Program-made: the position numbers and the translations under genes | Notes under the pieces: model-generated | Told to the model about the DNA's origin: nothing | The model's input: the letters and a program-made list of their open reading frames with translations, nothing else | Databases searched by the model: none | DNA from: a virus | Length of the DNA stretch: 31,914 nt | Virus record (IMG/VR): IMGVR_UViG_3300006413_000006 | Location: 1 to 31,914 of that record | Strand: one strand, 5' to 3' | Part shown: positions 1 through 31,914 of the stretch, in pieces | Layout: every line of letters begins with the position of its first letter | How positions within the stretch are numbered: position 1 is the first letter of the stretch

Positions 1-125
1 CACAGCCCTACGTTGAAGAAGGTTTTGCAGCTTTAGATCGTACCCCAGAATGGTTTCAATGGGCCATGTACGCATCAATAGGGGCCTCTTTTGGTATTCG
101 TGGAATAAAAGGTATTAAGAAATGA
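1..125 (+). CDS. C-terminal end of a probable holin (partial)
   Basis: An open frame enters from the left edge, with codons from base 3, and ends at TGA 123-125. The last 40 residues are visible and end in a short hydrophobic stretch (WFQWAMYASIGASFG) followed by a basic tail (IRGIKGIKK). The stop overlaps the lysozyme start as ATGA, so the two genes are translationally coupled. A small membrane protein directly before an endolysin is the classical place for a holin, and the tail resembles the end of 3TM-type phage holins as I remember them. The N-terminus and most membrane segments lie outside the window, so the call rests mainly on context. Confidence 0.45.
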   Translation, partial: QPYVEEGFAALDRTPEWFQWAMYASIGASFGIRGIKGIKK

Positions 126-562
126 TCATAGAAGAATTAAGAAAAGAAATAGAAATCGATGAAGGATGCAAGTACGAAATCTATCTCGATCATCTTGGTT
201 TGCCTACTTTTGGTATTGGCCACCTCGTTTTGGATTCTGATCCTGAGAGCGGAGCAGAAGTCGGAACTCCTGTATCAGAAGATAGAGTGTCAGAGTGTTT
301 TGATAAAGATGTACACACAGTGCTTTCCGACTGTGAAAAACTGTACGAAGACTTCTCCGAACTCCCTGAAGAAGTGCAAAGAATTATTGCAAACATGATG
401 TTTAATATGGGCTACCCAAGGCTAAGTAAATTTCGTGGAATGAAAGCAGGGGTAGATGCTAGAGACTGGAATAAAGCCGCAGATGAGATGGTCGACTCAC
501 GTTGGTATAAACAAGTAACTAACCGTGCTGAACGTCTCGTTCAGCGGATGAGATCGGTCTAA
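122..562 (+). CDS. Endolysin, T4-type lysozyme (GH24 muramidase)
   Basis: A 146-residue protein with the T4 lysozyme layout. It has IDEG with Glu14, YLDHLG with Asp23, and TFGIGHL with Thr29. The spacing equals that of Glu11-Asp20-Thr26 in T4 lysozyme, so the catalytic triad is intact. The C-terminal half has the family pattern NMMFNMG near residues 91-97 followed by a W-rich helix. It would hydrolyse the beta-1,4 MurNAc-GlcNAc bond of peptidoglycan at the end of infection. There is no signal peptide, so release should depend on the holin just upstream, whose stop codon overlaps this start. Its last 44 bases overlap the convergent regulator gene on the minus strand. Confidence 0.9.
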   Translation: MIIEELRKEIEIDEGCKYEIYLDHLGLPTFGIGHLVLDSDPESGAEVGTPVSEDRVSECFDKDVHTVLSDCEKLYEDFSELPEEVQRIIANMMFNMGYPRLSKFRGMKAGVDARDWNKAADEMVDSRWYKQVTNRAERLVQRMRSV

Positions 563-2249: not shown

Positions 2250-2840
2250 TTGACTACACAGGGTTATTCTTCTGCTGAAAAAATTTATAACGTTCGTATG
2301 GCTGGTCGCATTCGCAGACTACATATACGGCCTATGAACGGAGATGAACAAAACGTTGCGGCTCATACTTGGGGCGTAGCGATGATTCTTCTTGACCTTT
2401 TTCCTGATGTATCTAGAGAGGCTCTCGTTTTTACACTACGACATGATGTTCCAGAAGTTGTTACAGGGGATATTCCAGCTAACGTAAAGTGGGATAATCC
2501 TGAAATAGAAGAAACGTTGCAGAGAAGAGAAAAAAGGTTTTTAAAAGATATGGGTTGGCAACAAGAACATAAAGGTGCGCCATCTTATGATCGTGAAAAT
2601 CTTTATATACGAATAGCGGATAGAGTTGAACTGTTATTCTTTTGTTTTGAACAAATATACATGGGTAATTCTATGTTATTAGATGTTTGTCAAAATGTAG
2701 GAGAAAAAATATTAGACGATGTTGAGTTGCTTGATAAGGAATATCGTCCGATAGTTACAGACTACATCGACCAGTACAATGTTTATCTAGCAAGTAATTT
2801 TAGTAAGGAAAAACACTTCACACACGGCGGTTTATCATAA
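2250..2840 (+). CDS. HD-domain phosphohydrolase (YfbR-like 5'-deoxynucleotidase)
   Basis: A 196-residue HD-superfamily protein. Metal ligands are visible as NVAAHTW (His39), RHDVPEVVTGD (His65-Asp66, Glu69) and a later IADRVE. The arrangement HD-x2-E-x4-GD resembles YfbR, which removes phosphate from deoxynucleoside 5'-monophosphates. A phage may use it to shape the dNTP pool. This would fit the thymidylate-synthase-family enzyme and predicted base-modification genes downstream, but that link is inferred. The start is TTG at 2250, chosen because AAAGGA lies seven bases upstream. The next in-frame ATG would cut 16 residues. It is divergent from the helicase operon, with about 70 bp between them. 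Confidence 0.8.
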   Translation: MTTQGYSSAEKIYNVRMAGRIRRLHIRPMNGDEQNVAAHTWGVAMILLDLFPDVSREALVFTLRHDVPEVVTGDIPANVKWDNPEIEETLQRREKRFLKDMGWQQEHKGAPSYDRENLYIRIADRVELLFFCFEQIYMGNSMLLDVCQNVGEKILDDVELLDKEYRPIVTDYIDQYNVYLASNFSKEKHFTHGGLS

Positions 2841-8428: not shown

Positions 8429-9271
8429 ATGGCATCTATTAGGAAAAAAATTGCGGTAAACGCAAATAATTCGAAAAACACTCGCATGGATATTGCAGGT
8501 GCTGGTACGCTTGCTAACTGGCGACCAGATGAACTAGCTCACATCAGCCGCTTTTGTAAAATGGCACAGTTGATTATGGATAGGGCTAAACAAGAAGGCC
8601 GACCACAAGACATTCTTGAAATAGGTTGTGGTGAGGTTTGGACACTTCGTTATTTATATAAAGCGTTTGTATCTCGTAAAGAAGAAATAGTTAACAGTTA
8701 CACAGGCATAGATATTGACCCAGCTTGTCTTGTAGATTGGTGGGTAGACGACGATCAAGACGTAACCGACCATCAGTGGTTTAAAACTATGACTGGTGGT
8801 AACGGTCGTATTGTTCTTCAGGATTTAACAACTAATCCTGAACCTCCAGTTGAAGACGAATCTATGGATGTCTTTATGACTACAGAAGTAATCGAACATA
8901 TGGGGAGACAGTTCATTGAACCTTGGATCGAAGCATCATGGCGTAAACTGCGTCCGAACGGCATTGCGTATATCTCGACGCCGAACCACGATGGGTCAAA
9001 CGATAAACTCCCAAAAGACCACGTCTACGAGTGGGGATACGAAGAACTCAAAACCCTCCTTGAAAAATACTACACCATTGAAAGACACTACGGGACGTTT
9101 ACGCAAATGAATAACTTCAAACGTAACCACCGTGCTAATTTAAGATGGCCTCAACATGTAATAGATGATATACAAGGACGCTTTGATAAAAATTGGTCTC
9201 GTGTTATATTAGCTACAGCTTATCCAGAAACAGCTAATAACTGTAATTGGATTTTAAGGAAAAAAGTATGA
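8429..9271 (+). CDS. SAM-dependent methyltransferase (class I, Methyltransf_11/23-like)
   Basis: A 280-residue Rossmann-fold methyltransferase. Motif I is DILEIGCGE (61-69). The acidic end of beta-2 is GIDID (93-97). Motif IV region is TTEVIEHM (151-158). A LRPNGIAYISTPNHDG strand follows (174-189). It lacks the NPPY or DPPY of DNA N6-adenine or N4-cytosine enzymes and the PC motif of C5-cytosine enzymes. It is thus more like small-molecule or sugar O/N/C-methyltransferases. Its stop overlaps the start of the thymine-modification-like gene (ATGA), so it may act on a modified base or its precursor; this is inference. The start has GGAG eight bases upstream. Confidence 0.85.
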   Translation: MASIRKKIAVNANNSKNTRMDIAGAGTLANWRPDELAHISRFCKMAQLIMDRAKQEGRPQDILEIGCGEVWTLRYLYKAFVSRKEEIVNSYTGIDIDPACLVDWWVDDDQDVTDHQWFKTMTGGNGRIVLQDLTTNPEPPVEDESMDVFMTTEVIEHMGRQFIEPWIEASWRKLRPNGIAYISTPNHDGSNDKLPKDHVYEWGYEELKTLLEKYYTIERHYGTFTQMNNFKRNHRANLRWPQHVIDDIQGRFDKNWSRVILATAYPETANNCNWILRKKV

Positions 9272-10095
9272 CACCAGAGGCACGTTTCTTTTGGTGGATA
9301 GAAGAACGCCATCGTATCTTTGAAAAAAGAAAACGAGGGCTTTCTCGGGATTGGTGGACCGAAGACGAGATCCTCCGAACTTATCGGTTCACCAATCCTT
9401 ATCGAGAAAACGATAGAACAACTGTTTGGTTTCGTGAAAATATTCGTGACCCATTAAAAGACGACAATAAAGTTTTAATGGCTACTGTTATTTTTCGTTG
9501 GTTTAATCTAATTCAAACAGGCGAAACGCTTGTAAAAAATAACTTGCACATCCAGTGGGATTCTGAATTAGCTAGGCAAGAGATAAAGAAACAAGACCAG
9601 TATGTTACTGGTGCATACATAATTAAAACGCCTGATGGTAAAGATAAAGTAGATGGTGTTATCTGGTGTATCGAACAGATACTTAAAGAAGAAAACAGGT
9701 TAATTAGCCGATTTATAGAATGCCCACGATTAGAGATGGCATGGGAGATATTTCAAGACTATCCATATCTTGGTGCATTTATGTCTTACGAGCTTGTAAC
9801 AGATTTACGTTGGACACACTTCTTTCAAAACGCAACTGATATAATGCGTTGGGCTAATGCTGGTCCAGGAGCGATGCGAGGGTTAAATCGTATTCATGGT
9901 CGTGATTTAAACTATAAACGTAAATCACATAACTGGAACACAGAAATGTACGAGTTGCTTCAAACGTCTAAAGATTATTTAGGTGAGTGGATGCCTAAAT
10001 TAGAAATGCGTGAAATAGAACATAGTTTATGTGAGTTTGATAAATATGAGCGTGTGCGTAACGGAGAAGGGAGACCAAGAGGTAAATTTCCATGA
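9268..10095 (+). CDS. Alpha-glutamyl/putrescinyl thymine pyrophosphorylase-like (5-hmdU DNA kinase helical domain family)
   Basis: A 275-residue, mostly helical protein. The N-terminal segment FFWWIEERHRIF, then WWTEDEILRTYRF, then TNPYRENDR (Asn43, Tyr45, Arg46, Asp49, Arg50), and VIFRWFN resemble the conserved start of the family named alpha-glutamyl/putrescinyl thymine pyrophosphorylase (Pfam HMUDK_hel). That family was found by comparative genomics in phages with hypermodified thymine. Such proteins are thought to act at 5-(pyrophosphoryloxymethyl)-dU in DNA. The ATG at 9268 overlaps the methyltransferase stop, with AAGGA upstream. The gene ends in an ATGA overlap with the ThyA-family gene. 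No P-loop kinase domain is fused to it. The family call is by recall of motifs, without a profile search. Confidence 0.65.
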   Translation: MTPEARFFWWIEERHRIFEKRKRGLSRDWWTEDEILRTYRFTNPYRENDRTTVWFRENIRDPLKDDNKVLMATVIFRWFNLIQTGETLVKNNLHIQWDSELARQEIKKQDQYVTGAYIIKTPDGKDKVDGVIWCIEQILKEENRLISRFIECPRLEMAWEIFQDYPYLGAFMSYELVTDLRWTHFFQNATDIMRWANAGPGAMRGLNRIHGRDLNYKRKSHNWNTEMYELLQTSKDYLGEWMPKLEMREIEHSLCEFDKYERVRNGEGRPRGKFP

Positions 10096-11090
10096 AAGTA
10101 ATTAGAGAAAGAAATATTAATGGTGTTTTTAATATTGCTGTTATGAACCTACGAGTAACCCACAGCTTAATAGAAATGGATTCTCGTAATGGTAAAGTAT
10201 ATATGTTTCCTGAACCTGTAACCTCGGTTTATAAGAGACCGAATGAACGTGTGTTGTTTAGTCCAGAAAGAAACTGTAATCCTTTTTTCCATTTTATAGA
10301 GGGCTTATGGATGTTAGCTGGTCGTAACGACTTAGAAACATTAACAGAGTTTGTTCCGAGGATGGCAGAGTTTTCTGATGATAACGTTCTTGTAAACGGT
10401 GCTTATGGTTATCGTTGGCGCACATGGTTTGGTCGAGATCAGTTAAAAGAAGTTATTCAAATGTTGTTAGCTAACCCATTAGATCGTCGTGTTGTTTTAC
10501 AGATGTGGGATGCTACTAAAGACTTTACTTCTGATTCAAAAGATGTGCCTTGTAATACACAAGTCTTTTTTAAGTGTCGTCCTATTACACATCAAGATGA
10601 TTATGTTCTTGATATGACTGTAACTAACCGTTCAAATGATATGATCTGGGGAGCTTACGGTGCAAATGTTGTACATTTTTCGATGTTACATGAATATGTT
10701 GCCGCATTCACGGGTTATCGTATTGGACATTATTATCAGGTAAGTAATAACGCTCACGTATATGACAATGTTTGGTCTAAGTTAGAACCAAAGTTACCGC
10801 AAGGATATCCTGTTGATCCATATGAAGCGTTCCATCTTAAACCATACCGATTGGTAGATGATGCACATTTTTTTAACGATGAGTTAGCTGAATTTTTTAA
10901 CTGGTTTCATAACGGTAGTGATCATAAAAACTATAGAAATCCATTGTTTACTGAAGTAGCTATGCCTTTAGTTGAAGCATGGTGGCTTTATAAAGGTGGT
11001 TTAAATATAGAAGCAATATCTGTTGCTAAAAGAATACAAGCGGAAGATTGGAGAAAAGCCTGTGTCGAGTGGATCGAAAGAAAAATCTGA
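10092..11090 (+). CDS. ThyA-family enzyme: thymidylate synthase or dUMP hydroxymethylase
   Basis: A 332-residue protein of the thymidylate synthase fold. Visible landmarks, with E. coli ThyA equivalents: FIEGLWMLAG with Glu70 (Glu58), GAYGYRWR (VYGxQWR), LDRR with Arg132-Arg133 (Arg126/127), VPCNTQ with nucleophile Cys154 (Cys146), NRSND with Arg180 and Asp183 (Arg166, Asp169), ANVVHF with Asn192 (Asn177), and AHVY (HxY). Asn at the 177 position points to dUMP rather than dCMP as substrate. Sequence alone cannot tell methylation from hydroxymethylation. The His after the catalytic Cys of ThyA is Asn here. Placement beside a thymine pyrophosphorylase-like gene favours 5-hydroxymethyl-dUMP synthesis, but ordinary dTMP supply remains possible. 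Confidence 0.85.
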   Translation: MKVIRERNINGVFNIAVMNLRVTHSLIEMDSRNGKVYMFPEPVTSVYKRPNERVLFSPERNCNPFFHFIEGLWMLAGRNDLETLTEFVPRMAEFSDDNVLVNGAYGYRWRTWFGRDQLKEVIQMLLANPLDRRVVLQMWDATKDFTSDSKDVPCNTQVFFKCRPITHQDDYVLDMTVTNRSNDMIWGAYGANVVHFSMLHEYVAAFTGYRIGHYYQVSNNAHVYDNVWSKLEPKLPQGYPVDPYEAFHLKPYRLVDDAHFFNDELAEFFNWFHNGSDHKNYRNPLFTEVAMPLVEAWWLYKGGLNIEAISVAKRIQAEDWRKACVEWIERKI

Positions 11091-11382
11091 AATTATATAT
11101 ACTGTTGGTTGTCTTGCCGCAGAAGATGTAGATAAGTTAGACCTAGCTGAGCAGTCCTATGGTGACAGCTGGAAACAACGTGGTGGTATCGGGGCGTTTA
11201 TGATGGCGGCACGTAAATGGGATCGGTTAGAAAAACAGGTAACAGCACACGGTTACGATATCTTTAAAGCTATGCAAGCAGATACTAGACCTGAAGGCAT
11301 CTTAGACGATATACGAGACCTTAGACGCTATCTATTTCTAATAGATGCAGAAATTTGTAACAGGGGTAGTCAACGTGACTAA
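11062..11382 (+). CDS. DUF1599 / nucleotide-modification-associated domain 1-like protein
   Basis: A protein of about 106 residues beginning at GTG 11062, with GGAG eight bases upstream, so its start lies inside the ThyA-family gene. The central pattern SYGDSWKQRG...ARKWDRLE...GILDDIRDLRRYLFLID resembles the DUF1599 family (K-x-YG-x-SW ... K-x2-RL ... D-x2-DL-x2-Y). That family is also called nucleotide modification associated domain 1 because it is found with phage base-modification genes. Its biochemical role is not known. Being in the same coupled operon as the two previous genes strengthens the idea of a modification module. The match is by eye and moderate. Confidence 0.6.
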   Translation: MSSGSKEKSEIIYTVGCLAAEDVDKLDLAEQSYGDSWKQRGGIGAFMMAARKWDRLEKQVTAHGYDIFKAMQADTRPEGILDDIRDLRRYLFLIDAEICNRGSQRD

Positions 11383-13381
11383 TAATATAGTAAGCTCAAC
11401 GCAGACAAAAACTGCAAAGAAGCAAGCTATGCCAAAGAACCCTCTCCAACAACCTTTGTTTTCTCCCGATAGTGATTGGACACCACCAGAAGTCCTTCCT
11501 GATTTAAAAGGGGCTAAAGAAATATGTATCGACTTAGAAACTTATGACCCCTCTTTAAAAGAGCGAGGGGCTGGTTGGGCAAGGAGCGATGGTCATGTTG
11601 TAGGTTATGCTGTAGCCACTTCTGATTGGTCTGGCTACTTACCTGTTAAACATGAAGCAGGAGGAAACTTAAATGCAAAACTTGTTAAGAAATGGTTACA
11701 GGATCAAATTAATAACGGTGCGGATATTATTTGCCATAACGCTTCTTACGATATTGGGTGGATGCGTAGGGAAGGTATCGAGTTGCGTGGAAACAGACTC
11801 ATTGACACTATGGTGTCTGCCCCTCTCATAGATGAAAACAGATTTAGTTATGCGTTAAACGCTTTAGGTAGAGAATACTTACAAGAACGAAAAGACGAAA
11901 CATTACTACGAGATGCCGCTGAAGCATGGAGCGTAGATGCAAAAGGCGGTCTACATCATCTACCGCCTATGTATGTAGGACCATATGCAGAACAAGATGC
12001 TTTGTTAACTCTAAAGCTGTGGGAGTGGCAAAAGGGTGAGATGACACGGCAAGACTTATGGTCGATCTTTGAACTTGAATCTTCGATTACTCCTTTACTT
12101 ATAGAGATGCGATGGAGAGGTGTACGAGTAGATTTAGATAAGGCAGAAGAATTATCTAAATGGTTTCGTGCAAGAGAGGAAGCCGCCCTTCATCAAATAA
12201 AGAAACTTTGTGGGCGCAATGTAGAAGTCTGGGCAAACAAATCTATTCAACAAGCGTTTGACTCACTTAATTTAACTTATCCCAAAACTGCACTTGATGC
12301 ACCTTCGTTTCAACAGTCGTGGCTTGAAAACCATGAACACGATATGCCTAAGTTGATTGTAGAAGCTCGGAAGATGAATAAGGCAAGGACTACATTCATT
12401 GACGGAATGATTATGTCTAACCAAGTTGATGGACGTATCCACGCAGAGCTACACCCACTTCGCTCAGACGACGGAGGAACGGTGACTGGACGGTTTAGCT
12501 ACTCTAACCCTAACTTGCAACAAGTTCCCGCCAGAGACCCTGAGATCGGCACGAAAATACGTTCTTTATTTATACCTGAGGAAGGTTGCCAGTGGGGGGC
12601 GTTTGACTATTCGCAACAAGAACCACGGATCGTTGTTCATTATTCTGATATGATGGGGCTTCCTGGAGCGAGCGACGCCGTGAAAGCATTTCAAGAAGAA
12701 GATGCAGACTTTCACCAGATCGTTGCTGATATGGCTGGGATACCGCGCAAACAAGCTAAGAACATTAACCTTGGTTTGTTTTATTCGATGGGCGTAACTA
12801 AACTATCAGAAAGCCTTGGACTAACCCTTGACGAAGGTAAAGAGTTGTTTGCTCAATATCATGCGCGAGTACCGTTTGTAAAACAACTATCAGAGAGGGC
12901 AGTACAGAGGGCTTCAAAACAAGGAAGTATTCGTACGCTTCTAGGAAGACGGTGTCGGTTCGATAAGTGGGAACCAGCACAGTTTGGTACACGTAAAATC
13001 ATGGATCATAAAACAGCATATGCAGAACACGGTAATGCAATCAAAAGAGCATTTACCCATAAAGCTATGAATCGTTTGATCCAAGGAAGTGCGGCAGATA
13101 TGACTAAGAAAGCCATGAAGATGTTGTACGATGAAGGTATCGTTCCGCATATCCAAGTACACGATGAATTAGATTTTTCTATCGAATCAGAAGAACAGAT
13201 CACTAAGATAAAAGAAATTATGGAACAGTGCGTAGAGTTGTCTGTTCCTATCAAAGTAGACGTTGACTTAGGACCAAACTGGGGAGACGCTAAAGAAATA
13301 GAAAAGGTAATTAGCCATGCAGAAAGCACAAGAGGATGGACAAGAGGACAAGAAGCAAACTACGCTGTGCAAAAGATGTAA
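11345..13381 (+). CDS. polA: Family A DNA polymerase with 3'-5' exonuclease
   Basis: A 678-residue replicative polymerase. The DnaQ-like exonuclease has CIDLETYD (Asp63, Glu65), a HNASYD motif and YAEQDALLT, so proofreading looks active. There is no 5' nuclease domain. The polymerase has GRFSYSNPNLQQVP, motif A FDYSQQEPR (Asp421), motif B R-KQA-K-NIN-L-GLF-Y, and motif C VHDELDF (Asp607, Glu608). In motif B, Leu476 occupies the position of E. coli Phe762, a variant known from marine phage polymerases. The first ATG at 11345 overlaps the previous gene by 38 bases. GTG 11375 is a possible later start. It follows the putative modification genes and would copy the genome with the primase and helicase upstream. 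Confidence 0.93.
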   Translation: MQKFVTGVVNVTNNIVSSTQTKTAKKQAMPKNPLQQPLFSPDSDWTPPEVLPDLKGAKEICIDLETYDPSLKERGAGWARSDGHVVGYAVATSDWSGYLPVKHEAGGNLNAKLVKKWLQDQINNGADIICHNASYDIGWMRREGIELRGNRLIDTMVSAPLIDENRFSYALNALGREYLQERKDETLLRDAAEAWSVDAKGGLHHLPPMYVGPYAEQDALLTLKLWEWQKGEMTRQDLWSIFELESSITPLLIEMRWRGVRVDLDKAEELSKWFRAREEAALHQIKKLCGRNVEVWANKSIQQAFDSLNLTYPKTALDAPSFQQSWLENHEHDMPKLIVEARKMNKARTTFIDGMIMSNQVDGRIHAELHPLRSDDGGTVTGRFSYSNPNLQQVPARDPEIGTKIRSLFIPEEGCQWGAFDYSQQEPRIVVHYSDMMGLPGASDAVKAFQEEDADFHQIVADMAGIPRKQAKNINLGLFYSMGVTKLSESLGLTLDEGKELFAQYHARVPFVKQLSERAVQRASKQGSIRTLLGRRCRFDKWEPAQFGTRKIMDHKTAYAEHGNAIKRAFTHKAMNRLIQGSAADMTKKAMKMLYDEGIVPHIQVHDELDFSIESEEQITKIKEIMEQCVELSVPIKVDVDLGPNWGDAKEIEKVISHAESTRGWTRGQEANYAVQKM

Positions 13382-19990: not shown

Positions 19991-20353
19991 ATGACTGCAG
20001 TTTCTAAGAAGAAGGCTACTTCAAAAAAAGCCACTGTTAAGACAGCTTCTGCTACTTTGAAAGTTGTTGACCCCGCTGGTAACTCTGGCATCCCTGCTCC
20101 AGCTCCTAAAGGTTTTGACGGTCGTAAGATCAAGCTTGTTGCTTTGTCTAAAGAAAATCGCCGTTTGCCTAATCAGGCCGTTGTTGTCTTGAATACGCTC
20201 AAGGCTCTCGGTGCTGATAAGAAGCCCGTCACTCAGGCTGAGCTGATTGGTGCCATGCTTGAAAATGGTCTCAAGACTGTTCAGACACCAAAGCGCATTT
20301 ATACATTCTACCGCAAGGATTTGTTGGAAGAAGGTTACATCGCATACGCATAA
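19991..20353 (+). CDS. Small basic winged-helix-like DNA-binding protein
   Basis: A 120-residue protein. Residues 1-24 are a Lys/Thr/Ala-rich tail (SKKKATSKKATVKTASATLK) like those of histone-like proteins. A motif SGIPAPAPKG follows, then a winged-helix-like domain (about 55-120): VVLNTLKALG...VTQAELIGAML...RIYTFYRKDLLEEGYI. The same arrangement, including GIPAP, is found in the protein at 21237, and the C-terminal part also in the protein at 7846. DNA binding is likely. The role could be regulation or genome compaction early in infection. It has its own promoter and a strong terminator, so it is a one-gene unit. Confidence 0.72.
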   Translation: MTAVSKKKATSKKATVKTASATLKVVDPAGNSGIPAPAPKGFDGRKIKLVALSKENRRLPNQAVVVLNTLKALGADKKPVTQAELIGAMLENGLKTVQTPKRIYTFYRKDLLEEGYIAYA

Positions 20354-21236: not shown

Positions 21237-21587
21237 ATGACTAAAATTTCTAAGCCTACTACTAACGCTACCGTAACCCCTACCGTTAATAAAGCGTCTG
21301 TCGCGCGGTGCGGTATCCCCGCCCCTACCGCTAACGGGCGCGGTAATTTAAAGGTGTCCTTAACTAAGGACGTAAAAGCTAACTTAGCGGCGTTAGATAA
21401 GCCGCTACCCGCGCAGGCGCAGGCTATTTTATACGTACTAGACCAGCTAGGCGGTACGGCCACACAGGCGGACTTAATTAAAGAGTTAGATACGGGCGAG
21501 GTATTAAGTACCGTACAGGGTGCTACCCGTATCGTTACTTTTTACCGTAAAAAGCTTATAGCGGCTAACTTAATAAAAGTAGGCTAA
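21237..21587 (+). CDS. Winged-helix-like protein, paralogue of 19991, with atypical composition
   Basis: A 116-residue protein. Shared features with the protein at 19991 are a Thr/Lys-rich N-terminus, GIPAPT near residue 31, ILYVLDQLG, TQADLIKEL, TVQ and RI-x-TFYRKKL. It is therefore a likely DNA-binding paralogue. Its codon use is very different: Leu is almost only TTA or CTA, Gln only CAG, Glu only GAG, and the words TCA, CAA, TTG and GAA are absent from the gene. The paralogue uses these freely. The bias also covers the flanking DNA, including CTAG-rich hairpins after the gene. This suggests separate origin or strong local selection. GAAAGGA precedes the ATG. Confidence 0.75.
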   Translation: MTKISKPTTNATVTPTVNKASVARCGIPAPTANGRGNLKVSLTKDVKANLAALDKPLPAQAQAILYVLDQLGGTATQADLIKELDTGEVLSTVQGATRIVTFYRKKLIAANLIKVG

Positions 21588-31668: not shown

Positions 31669-31914
31669 ATGGCAAATAAAGACGCCGCTTTTGGGCTAAA
31701 GCCCGTCCGTACTTTGGGTGGTGTAGCGAACTTCACAACAAACGAGTACGATATTGCAAGTAACCATAGTAATGCAATTTTTCAGGGTTCACCTGTTATC
31801 GCTACTGCCGCTGGTGGTATCGATGTTGCAGCTGGTTCTTCCGATAAAATCGTAGGTGTTTTTCAAGGTTGTTCTTATACTGACCCAACATCTGGAGAAC
31901 CTGTATTTTCGAAT
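31669..31914 (+). CDS. Probable major capsid (or other virion) protein, N-terminal part
   Basis: The window ends after 82 codons. The start MANKDAAFGLKPVRTLGG, then NEYDIASNHSNAIFQGSPV and VGVFQGCSYTDP, is a pattern I associate with structural proteins of marine podovirus-like phages, often annotated as coat or capsid protein. Being next after the scaffold-like gene and one small gene also favours the major capsid protein. GGAG lies six bases before the ATG. The rest of the protein is beyond the edge, so a decoration or other head protein cannot be excluded. Confidence 0.6.
   Translation, partial: MANKDAAFGLKPVRTLGGVANFTTNEYDIASNHSNAIFQGSPVIATAAGGIDVAAGSSDKIVGVFQGCSYTDPTSGEPVFSN

Follow-up and report, generated by a model that had tools for sequence, protein, structure and literature searches.

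Introduction

To our knowledge, the thymine hypermodifications described so far in phages begin with the phosphorylation of 5-hydroxymethyl-deoxyuridine (5-hmdU). For phages M6, ViI and PhiW-14 it is established that 5-hmdU first enters the DNA and is phosphorylated there, after which further decoration follows; M6 DNA holds 5-hmdU-derived bases (PMC6449724). The stretch of DNA analysed here, called the window throughout, is the whole IMG/VR virus record IMGVR_UViG_3300006413_000006 (31,914 bases), in which a block of four open reading frames (ORFs) at 8429-11382 encodes a methyltransferase, an HMUDK_hel protein, a ThyA-like enzyme and a small conserved protein. An earlier note on this DNA had taken the block for a possible thymine hypermodification module. 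Our tentative reading is that it is a 5-hmdU-type thymine-replacement module lacking the kinase step, in which an S-adenosylmethionine (SAM)-dependent methyltransferase stands in the kinase's place and a methylated 5-hmdU is made.

The M6/Yuavirus cluster, as seen in AN14, shares with the window the genes for HMUDK_hel, a deoxyuridylate (dUMP) hydroxymethylase, an HD phosphohydrolase and a family A polymerase, arranged alike. The M6-type cluster further has the PF18748 kinase, the PF18724 transferase, a pyridoxal phosphate enzyme and a radical SAM enzyme; of what marks an M6-type system the window thus has the hydroxymethylase and HMUDK_hel, whereas PF18748 and PF18724 are lacking and a methyltransferase is present instead. 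In the PaMx11/Ab18 (Abidjanvirus) cluster the kinase immediately precedes HMUDK_hel and so has the position of the window's methyltransferase, but unlike the window these phages follow a route with the kinase, a glycinyltransferase (gp46), an FAD enzyme and an acetyltransferase. The cultured Brevibacterium phage LuckyBarnes and Microbacterium phage QuadZero resemble the window in carrying a distant HMUDK_hel with a ThyA-like gene, the partner there being one or two glycosyltransferases (a TET-associated glycosyltransferase, TAGT, in LuckyBarnes) and not a methyltransferase. That genes of this kind are generally permuted in metagenomes was reportedly noted by Lee in 2022.

Results

The protein encoded at 9268, which had been said to resemble the alpha-glutamyl/putrescinyl thymine pyrophosphorylase family, does belong there, as it matched PF18723 (HMUDK_hel) with an E of 9.5e-48 over its full length (163 bits against a cut-off of 25; residues 13-273 on profile positions 6-277 of 281) and phrog_2396 with 8e-59. 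Pfam names this family '5-hmdU DNA kinase, helical domain', and no Walker A motif or P-loop was found in the 9268 protein. The closest cultured homologue is that of PaMx11 (46% identity), M6 ORF055 being 36% identical. Eighteen columns of the HMUDK_hel alignment are invariant, charged and aromatic residues among them; R14, D33, R46, D49, D179, D191, C255 and E256 are invariant residues. The AlphaFold2 (AF2) model had a predicted local distance difference test (pLDDT) score of 95, and its top Foldseek matches in PDB were a HhH DNA 8-oxoguanine glycosylase and the PaMx11 5-PmdU glycinyltransferase; a sequence search of solved structures gave no match. Fusions of HMUDK_hel to a partner were absent among all ORFs of the loci collected at that stage.

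The ThyA-like protein at 10092 matched PF00303 (2.6e-23) and phrog_5131 (1.7e-103), its closest solved sequences are cytidylate (CMP) hydroxymethylases, and its identity to the Yuavirus homologues is 47% (46.6% for that of M6). The E. coli ThyA sequence that served as its reference had the expected length and key residues. Glu58, Tyr94, Cys146 and Asn177 of that enzyme are kept as residues 70, 105, 154 and 192, the last confirming that Asn192 stands at the dUMP-selecting position, while Trp80, Trp83 and Leu143 are replaced by Met91, Phe94 and Asp151, and the protein ends in ...WIERKI with the C-terminal tail of thymidylate synthase (TS) absent. Asp151 and Cys154 are shared by all the homologues aligned, and Asn192 by almost all of them. 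An Asn at the base-selecting position is the mark of enzymes acting on uracil, an Asp that of enzymes acting on cytosine; the dCMP hydroxymethylase of T4 and the CMP hydroxymethylase MilA, of the same superfamily as the window enzyme, have Asp where the latter has Asn192 (PMC5175136). In T4 dCMP hydroxymethylase, which likewise lacks the TS tail, Val85 and Asp145 stand where E. coli TS has its solvent gate, Trp83 and Leu143 (PMC6400193). The combination of Cys154, Asn192, Asp151 and no tail is that expected of a ThyA-superfamily dUMP hydroxymethylase and, together with the M6 homologue, supports this prediction for 10092, a refinement of the earlier assignment to a uracil-type ThyA-family enzyme. 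An ordinary TS raising dTTP beside unrelated neighbours would account for the ThyA fold and the conserved catalytic Cys, Glu and Tyr, but is scarcely credible: Asp151, the loss of Trp80 and Trp83, the missing tail, the similarity to the M6 homologue and a near-absolute linkage to HMUDK_hel contradict it.

That linkage was apparent among the 80 closest ThyA-like loci, picked regardless of their neighbours: HMUDK_hel was present in 77, and the other three look cut at contig or locus ends. The third gene in these loci was a glycosyltransferase in 45, a methyltransferase in 30 and a kinase in four. A larger set of 151 distinct HMUDK_hel genes, enriched for methyltransferase types because the methyltransferase gene was used as one query, gave a methyltransferase as partner in 95, a glycosyltransferase in 44 and a kinase in nine, the remaining three being distant phage relatives, and not one locus held two classes together. 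The joining of a methyltransferase to the gene set had been pointed out for the window; the order methyltransferase, HMUDK_hel, ThyA-like gene was seen in all 95 distinct methyltransferase-bearing HMUDK_hel loci, the methyltransferase touching or overlapping HMUDK_hel in 88. Its position in the window, directly upstream of HMUDK_hel, is the usual place of the 5-hmdU DNA kinase in M6-type phages and that of the kinase in most kinase loci. Eight of the nine kinases are accompanied by an amino acid:DNA transferase, and the ninth lies on a contig of 4.9 kb. The kinase is thus not the sole partner of HMUDK_hel and is replaced by glycosyltransferases in many relatives, which the earlier note had missed.

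When partners are mapped as labels on a tree of 91 HMUDK_hel proteins, about 11 to 14 changes are required. Counting only the strongly supported branches, at least three changes are needed for the kinase, five and four for the two GT-B-like groups and three for TAGT, and the methyltransferase label is compatible with a single origin; the deep forks are unsure owing to long branches among distant phages. As the labels are strongly clustered, partners appear to be inherited and occasionally exchanged, and partners so varied, mutually exclusive and exchanged argue that HMUDK_hel is not specific to the kinase. HMUDK_hel could accordingly be imagined as a general presenter of 5-hydroxymethyl-uracil with interchangeable kinase, methyltransferase or glycosyltransferase, the enzyme of the window's clade being an O-methyltransferase that yields 5-methoxymethyl-deoxyuridine or a related methylated 5-hmdU; so specific a version is possible, though doubtful. 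Alternatively, HMUDK_hel might itself be a transferase that places a small group on 5-hmdU independently of any kinase, with the methyl- or glycosyltransferase decorating that group. The invariant charged and aromatic residues and the weak Foldseek pairing with PaMx11 gp46 fit such an activity, but profile comparison showed no link between HMUDK_hel and the amino acid:DNA transferase, and a constant protein alone cannot explain kinase, methyltransferase and glycosyltransferase partners, so we consider it unlikely.

The absence of a 5-hmdU P-loop kinase, reported earlier for the window, was found to extend well beyond it. The last ORF of the window (31669-31914) is cut off by the end of the record, its counterpart of 188 aa being complete (46020-46586) in the related contig IMGVR_UViG_3300030380_001972 (53,774 bases), where the gene order on both sides of the block is the same; the window is therefore only part of a genome whose length is about 54 kb or more. 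Neither PF18748 (kinase) nor PF18724 (amino acid:DNA transferase) matched in the window, in this 53.8 kb relative or in 23 more long methyltransferase-type contigs, and both profiles found their positive controls (AN14, Pam3 and the L046 contig). A profile built from eight diverse kinases, PaMx11 included, was likewise negative in these 24 contigs (49-84 kb) and in nine glycosyltransferase-type contigs, and found both controls; AAA_33 (PF13671) was a poor detector, the control kinases falling below its cut-off. A kinase hidden in an unsequenced part of the genome is unlikely, given the syntenic 53.8 kb contig and 23 others without one, and a short contig is not why the kinase is missing: in a large viral group its absence is the norm. 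A kinase route that persists through a kinase and a transferase which escaped recognition or belong to the host, as an M6-type system with scattered genes, would be helped by the possible incompleteness of the contigs and by the genuine PaMx11 kinase scoring only E 0.002 against PF18748. It is nonetheless very improbable in view of the negative eight-kinase profile, the parallel absence of the amino acid:DNA transferase and the usual position of the kinase, where present, immediately upstream of HMUDK_hel.

The methyltransferase at 8429 belongs to class I of the SAM-dependent enzymes by its Rossmann profile (Methyltransf_23, 2e-10; Methyltransf_11, 6e-7) and by its fold, the AF2 model (pLDDT 82) matching small-molecule and O/N-methyltransferases. 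No DNA base methyltransferase (N6A, N4C or C5C) occurred among its Pfam matches or 50 best structural hits, and a sequence search of solved structures gave no match. Related viral methyltransferase loci numbered 197, and the N-terminus SKNTRM is invariant across 24 aligned relatives. Recent acquisition was not supported as the explanation of the high identity (85% in the protein), four-fold sites having diverged about as much as in the neighbouring helicase. In two further loci (L121:412-1230 and L122:9989-10828) a methyltransferase of the same family, with the SKNTRM start, lies beside an Asp-type, cytosine-like ThyA-family hydroxymethylase with no HMUDK_hel, a pairing which suggests that this methyltransferase follows hydroxymethylpyrimidine synthesis. 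Both loci also hold a small P-loop kinase-like gene, and in L121 the end of a 5-hmdU-kinase-like gene precedes the methyltransferase.

The virion DNA might instead carry plain 5-hmdU, as is known from SPO1/SP8-type phages (PMC6449724), with a merely co-transcribed methyltransferase acting elsewhere, on a small molecule, RNA or protein. The fold is of the small-molecule enzyme type, and one relative, L120, has neither a ThyA-like gene nor HMUDK_hel nearby. Against this stand a gene order that is the same in all 95 loci, the overlap with HMUDK_hel in 88 of them, the exclusion of glycosyltransferase and kinase, and the independent linkage to an Asp-type hydroxymethylase, and we regard plain 5-hmdU as improbable, if worth keeping in mind.

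The genes in the partner slot were named by Pfam as GT-B (PF00534), TAGT (PF20691), FkbM methyltransferase (PF05050) or SPASM radical SAM; a group of roughly 340 aa, GTB340, had no Pfam match and owes its glycosyltransferase label to the look of its sequence alone. PF00534 is a weak detector, positive in two of the nine glycosyltransferase-type contigs. Neither PF00534 nor TAGT above its cut-off was found in methyltransferase-type contigs, and in methyltransferase-type loci no glycosyltransferase stood beside HMUDK_hel. In T6 the addition of the second glucose has been ascribed to the TAGT family (PMC13390438). Large sets of aquatic phages combine GT-B or TAGT with HMUDK_hel and a ThyA-like gene (L053:8648-9985, L054:8670-10001, L076:9247-10020, L078:5805-6605 and L050:9021-9983), one further group being labelled glycosyltransferase from the look of the sequence only. 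The glycosyltransferase-bearing aquatic loci are probably glycosylated thymine systems. In some loci FkbM methyltransferases or a SPASM radical SAM enzyme lie alongside the glycosyltransferases (L055:7493-8203, L086:9283-10023 and L050:8026-9024), company that suggests O-methylation of the sugar or further tailoring of a base-linked sugar. Between its glycosyltransferase and ThyA-like genes, the L055 locus has an ORF that looks like a dUTPase (L055:9534-9986, by sequence look only) and would fit a need for dUMP.

The four ORFs of the block are present with the overlaps described for them, ATGA at 9268 and at 10092 and a GTG start at 11062 within the preceding ThyA-like gene (Table 1). Overlaps of the ATGA kind are ordinary in phage operons, and the feature of the block that exceeds chance is its conservation and not these overlaps. 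The frame of the polymerase PolA, directly downstream, is open from a GTG at 11375 and overlaps the 11062 gene, and a family A polymerase adjoins the module in every well-covered relative examined. A homologue of the YfbR-like protein adjoins the ThyA-like gene in M6-type phages (AN14, PaMx11 and Pam3). The protein encoded at 11062 belongs to a well-conserved family with 33 invariant columns over 15 relatives and the motif SYGDSWK.RGG.GAFMM.ARKWDR. The DUF1599/NMAD1 name given to it could not be upheld, since PF07659 was found in none of 37 genomes and neither the protein nor any of the 15 relatives matched any Pfam family.

Table 1. Location, strand and basis of assignment of the module genes and associated genes in the window
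Feature	Position	Strand	Basis
Class I SAM-dependent methyltransferase; predicted final-step group transferase	8429..9271	+	Pfam, AF2 model
HMUDK_hel (aGPT-Pplase clade 1) protein; predicted DNA-base-presenting partner	9268..10095	+	PF18723
Predicted deoxyuridylate (dUMP) hydroxymethylase, ThyA superfamily	10092..11090	+	PF00303, residues
Small conserved module protein, about 106 aa, no assigned function	11062..11382	+	Conservation
Family A DNA polymerase (PolA)	11375..13381	+	PF00476 6.7e-68
YfbR-like HD phosphohydrolase, possible nucleotide-pool enzyme	2250..2840	+	PF12917 1.9e-13

The portal protein of the window is 46-52% identical to those of HTVC023P-type pelagiphages, Roseobacter phage CRP-901 and phage DSL-LC04, which makes a podovirus-like genome of marine kinship reasonable. 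The description as a marine-type podovirus is thus upheld as to HTVC023P-type kinship, and a marine origin would be read off these relatives only. In the portal-related isolates HTVC027P, DSL-LC04 and CRP-901 the whole block is absent in the stretches read, the helicase and polymerase adjoining or nearly so in the first two, and the module therefore appears to be an optional insert in the HTVC023P-related virus group. Two neighbouring window ORFs (19991-20353 and 21237-21587) look like paralogues with a GIPAP...TFYRK.L motif, and both are kept in the 53.8 kb relative. A lysin-like gene beside the helicase (window 122-562; relatives L107-L119) is inverted in a subgroup of the methyltransferase-type genomes.

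Discussion

The proposed mechanism starts from what is directly observed, namely the gene set and its order, the residues, the absence of kinase and transferase, and the repeated exchange of partners. The ThyA-like enzyme would convert dUMP to 5-hydroxymethyl-dUMP, which host kinases would raise to the triphosphate, and the adjoining family A polymerase would incorporate 5-hmdUTP and so must accept that nucleotide; the YfbR-like phosphohydrolase may trim rival thymidine nucleotides. Once the DNA is replicated, the helical, glycosylase-like HMUDK_hel would bind it and present 5-hmdU, and the methyltransferase would methylate the exposed hydroxyl to give a methylated 5-hmdU such as 5-methoxymethyl-deoxyuridine. 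With HMUDK_hel constant and the group-transfer enzyme variable, it is simplest to suppose that dealing with the DNA falls to HMUDK_hel.

Several points weigh against a methylated 5-hmdU. The substrate, the product and every catalytic step, above all the methylated base, are what we infer from the genes. The fold matches of HMUDK_hel are weak (E 0.3 to 1), so that its likeness to a glycosylase or glycinyltransferase is no more than a hint. The family to which the methyltransferase belongs is generic, and the L120 member lacks both a ThyA-like gene and HMUDK_hel within its 16 kb stretch. The absence of kinase and transferase depends on possibly incomplete contigs and on profile sensitivity. Moreover, another enzyme of the ThyA superfamily gives a 5-hydroxy and not a 5-hydroxymethyl nucleotide (PMC13390438), which makes the precursor produced by 10092 less than certain.

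The earlier observation is confirmed apart from one family name, and its interpretation is in part supported and widened, the view of a thymine-modification module being borne out by the HMUDK_hel match and by the uracil-type hydroxymethylase features. The module probably replaces thymine in the DNA of an uncultured, probably marine virus family infecting bacteria. We know of no report of 5-methoxymethyl-deoxyuridine or a related methylated 5-hmdU from natural DNA, and the final base is probably one not yet seen.

By far most of the collected loci keep the HMUDK_hel domain and have methyl- or glycosyltransferases in place of the kinase. If the proposal is true, most HMUDK_hel phages make undescribed bases and the Pfam family name is misleading, and HMUDK_hel with its partner would offer a compact two-protein tool to methylate or glycosylate 5-hmdU in DNA. 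It would also bear on how these viruses escape restriction, and on why their DNA may be under-sampled.

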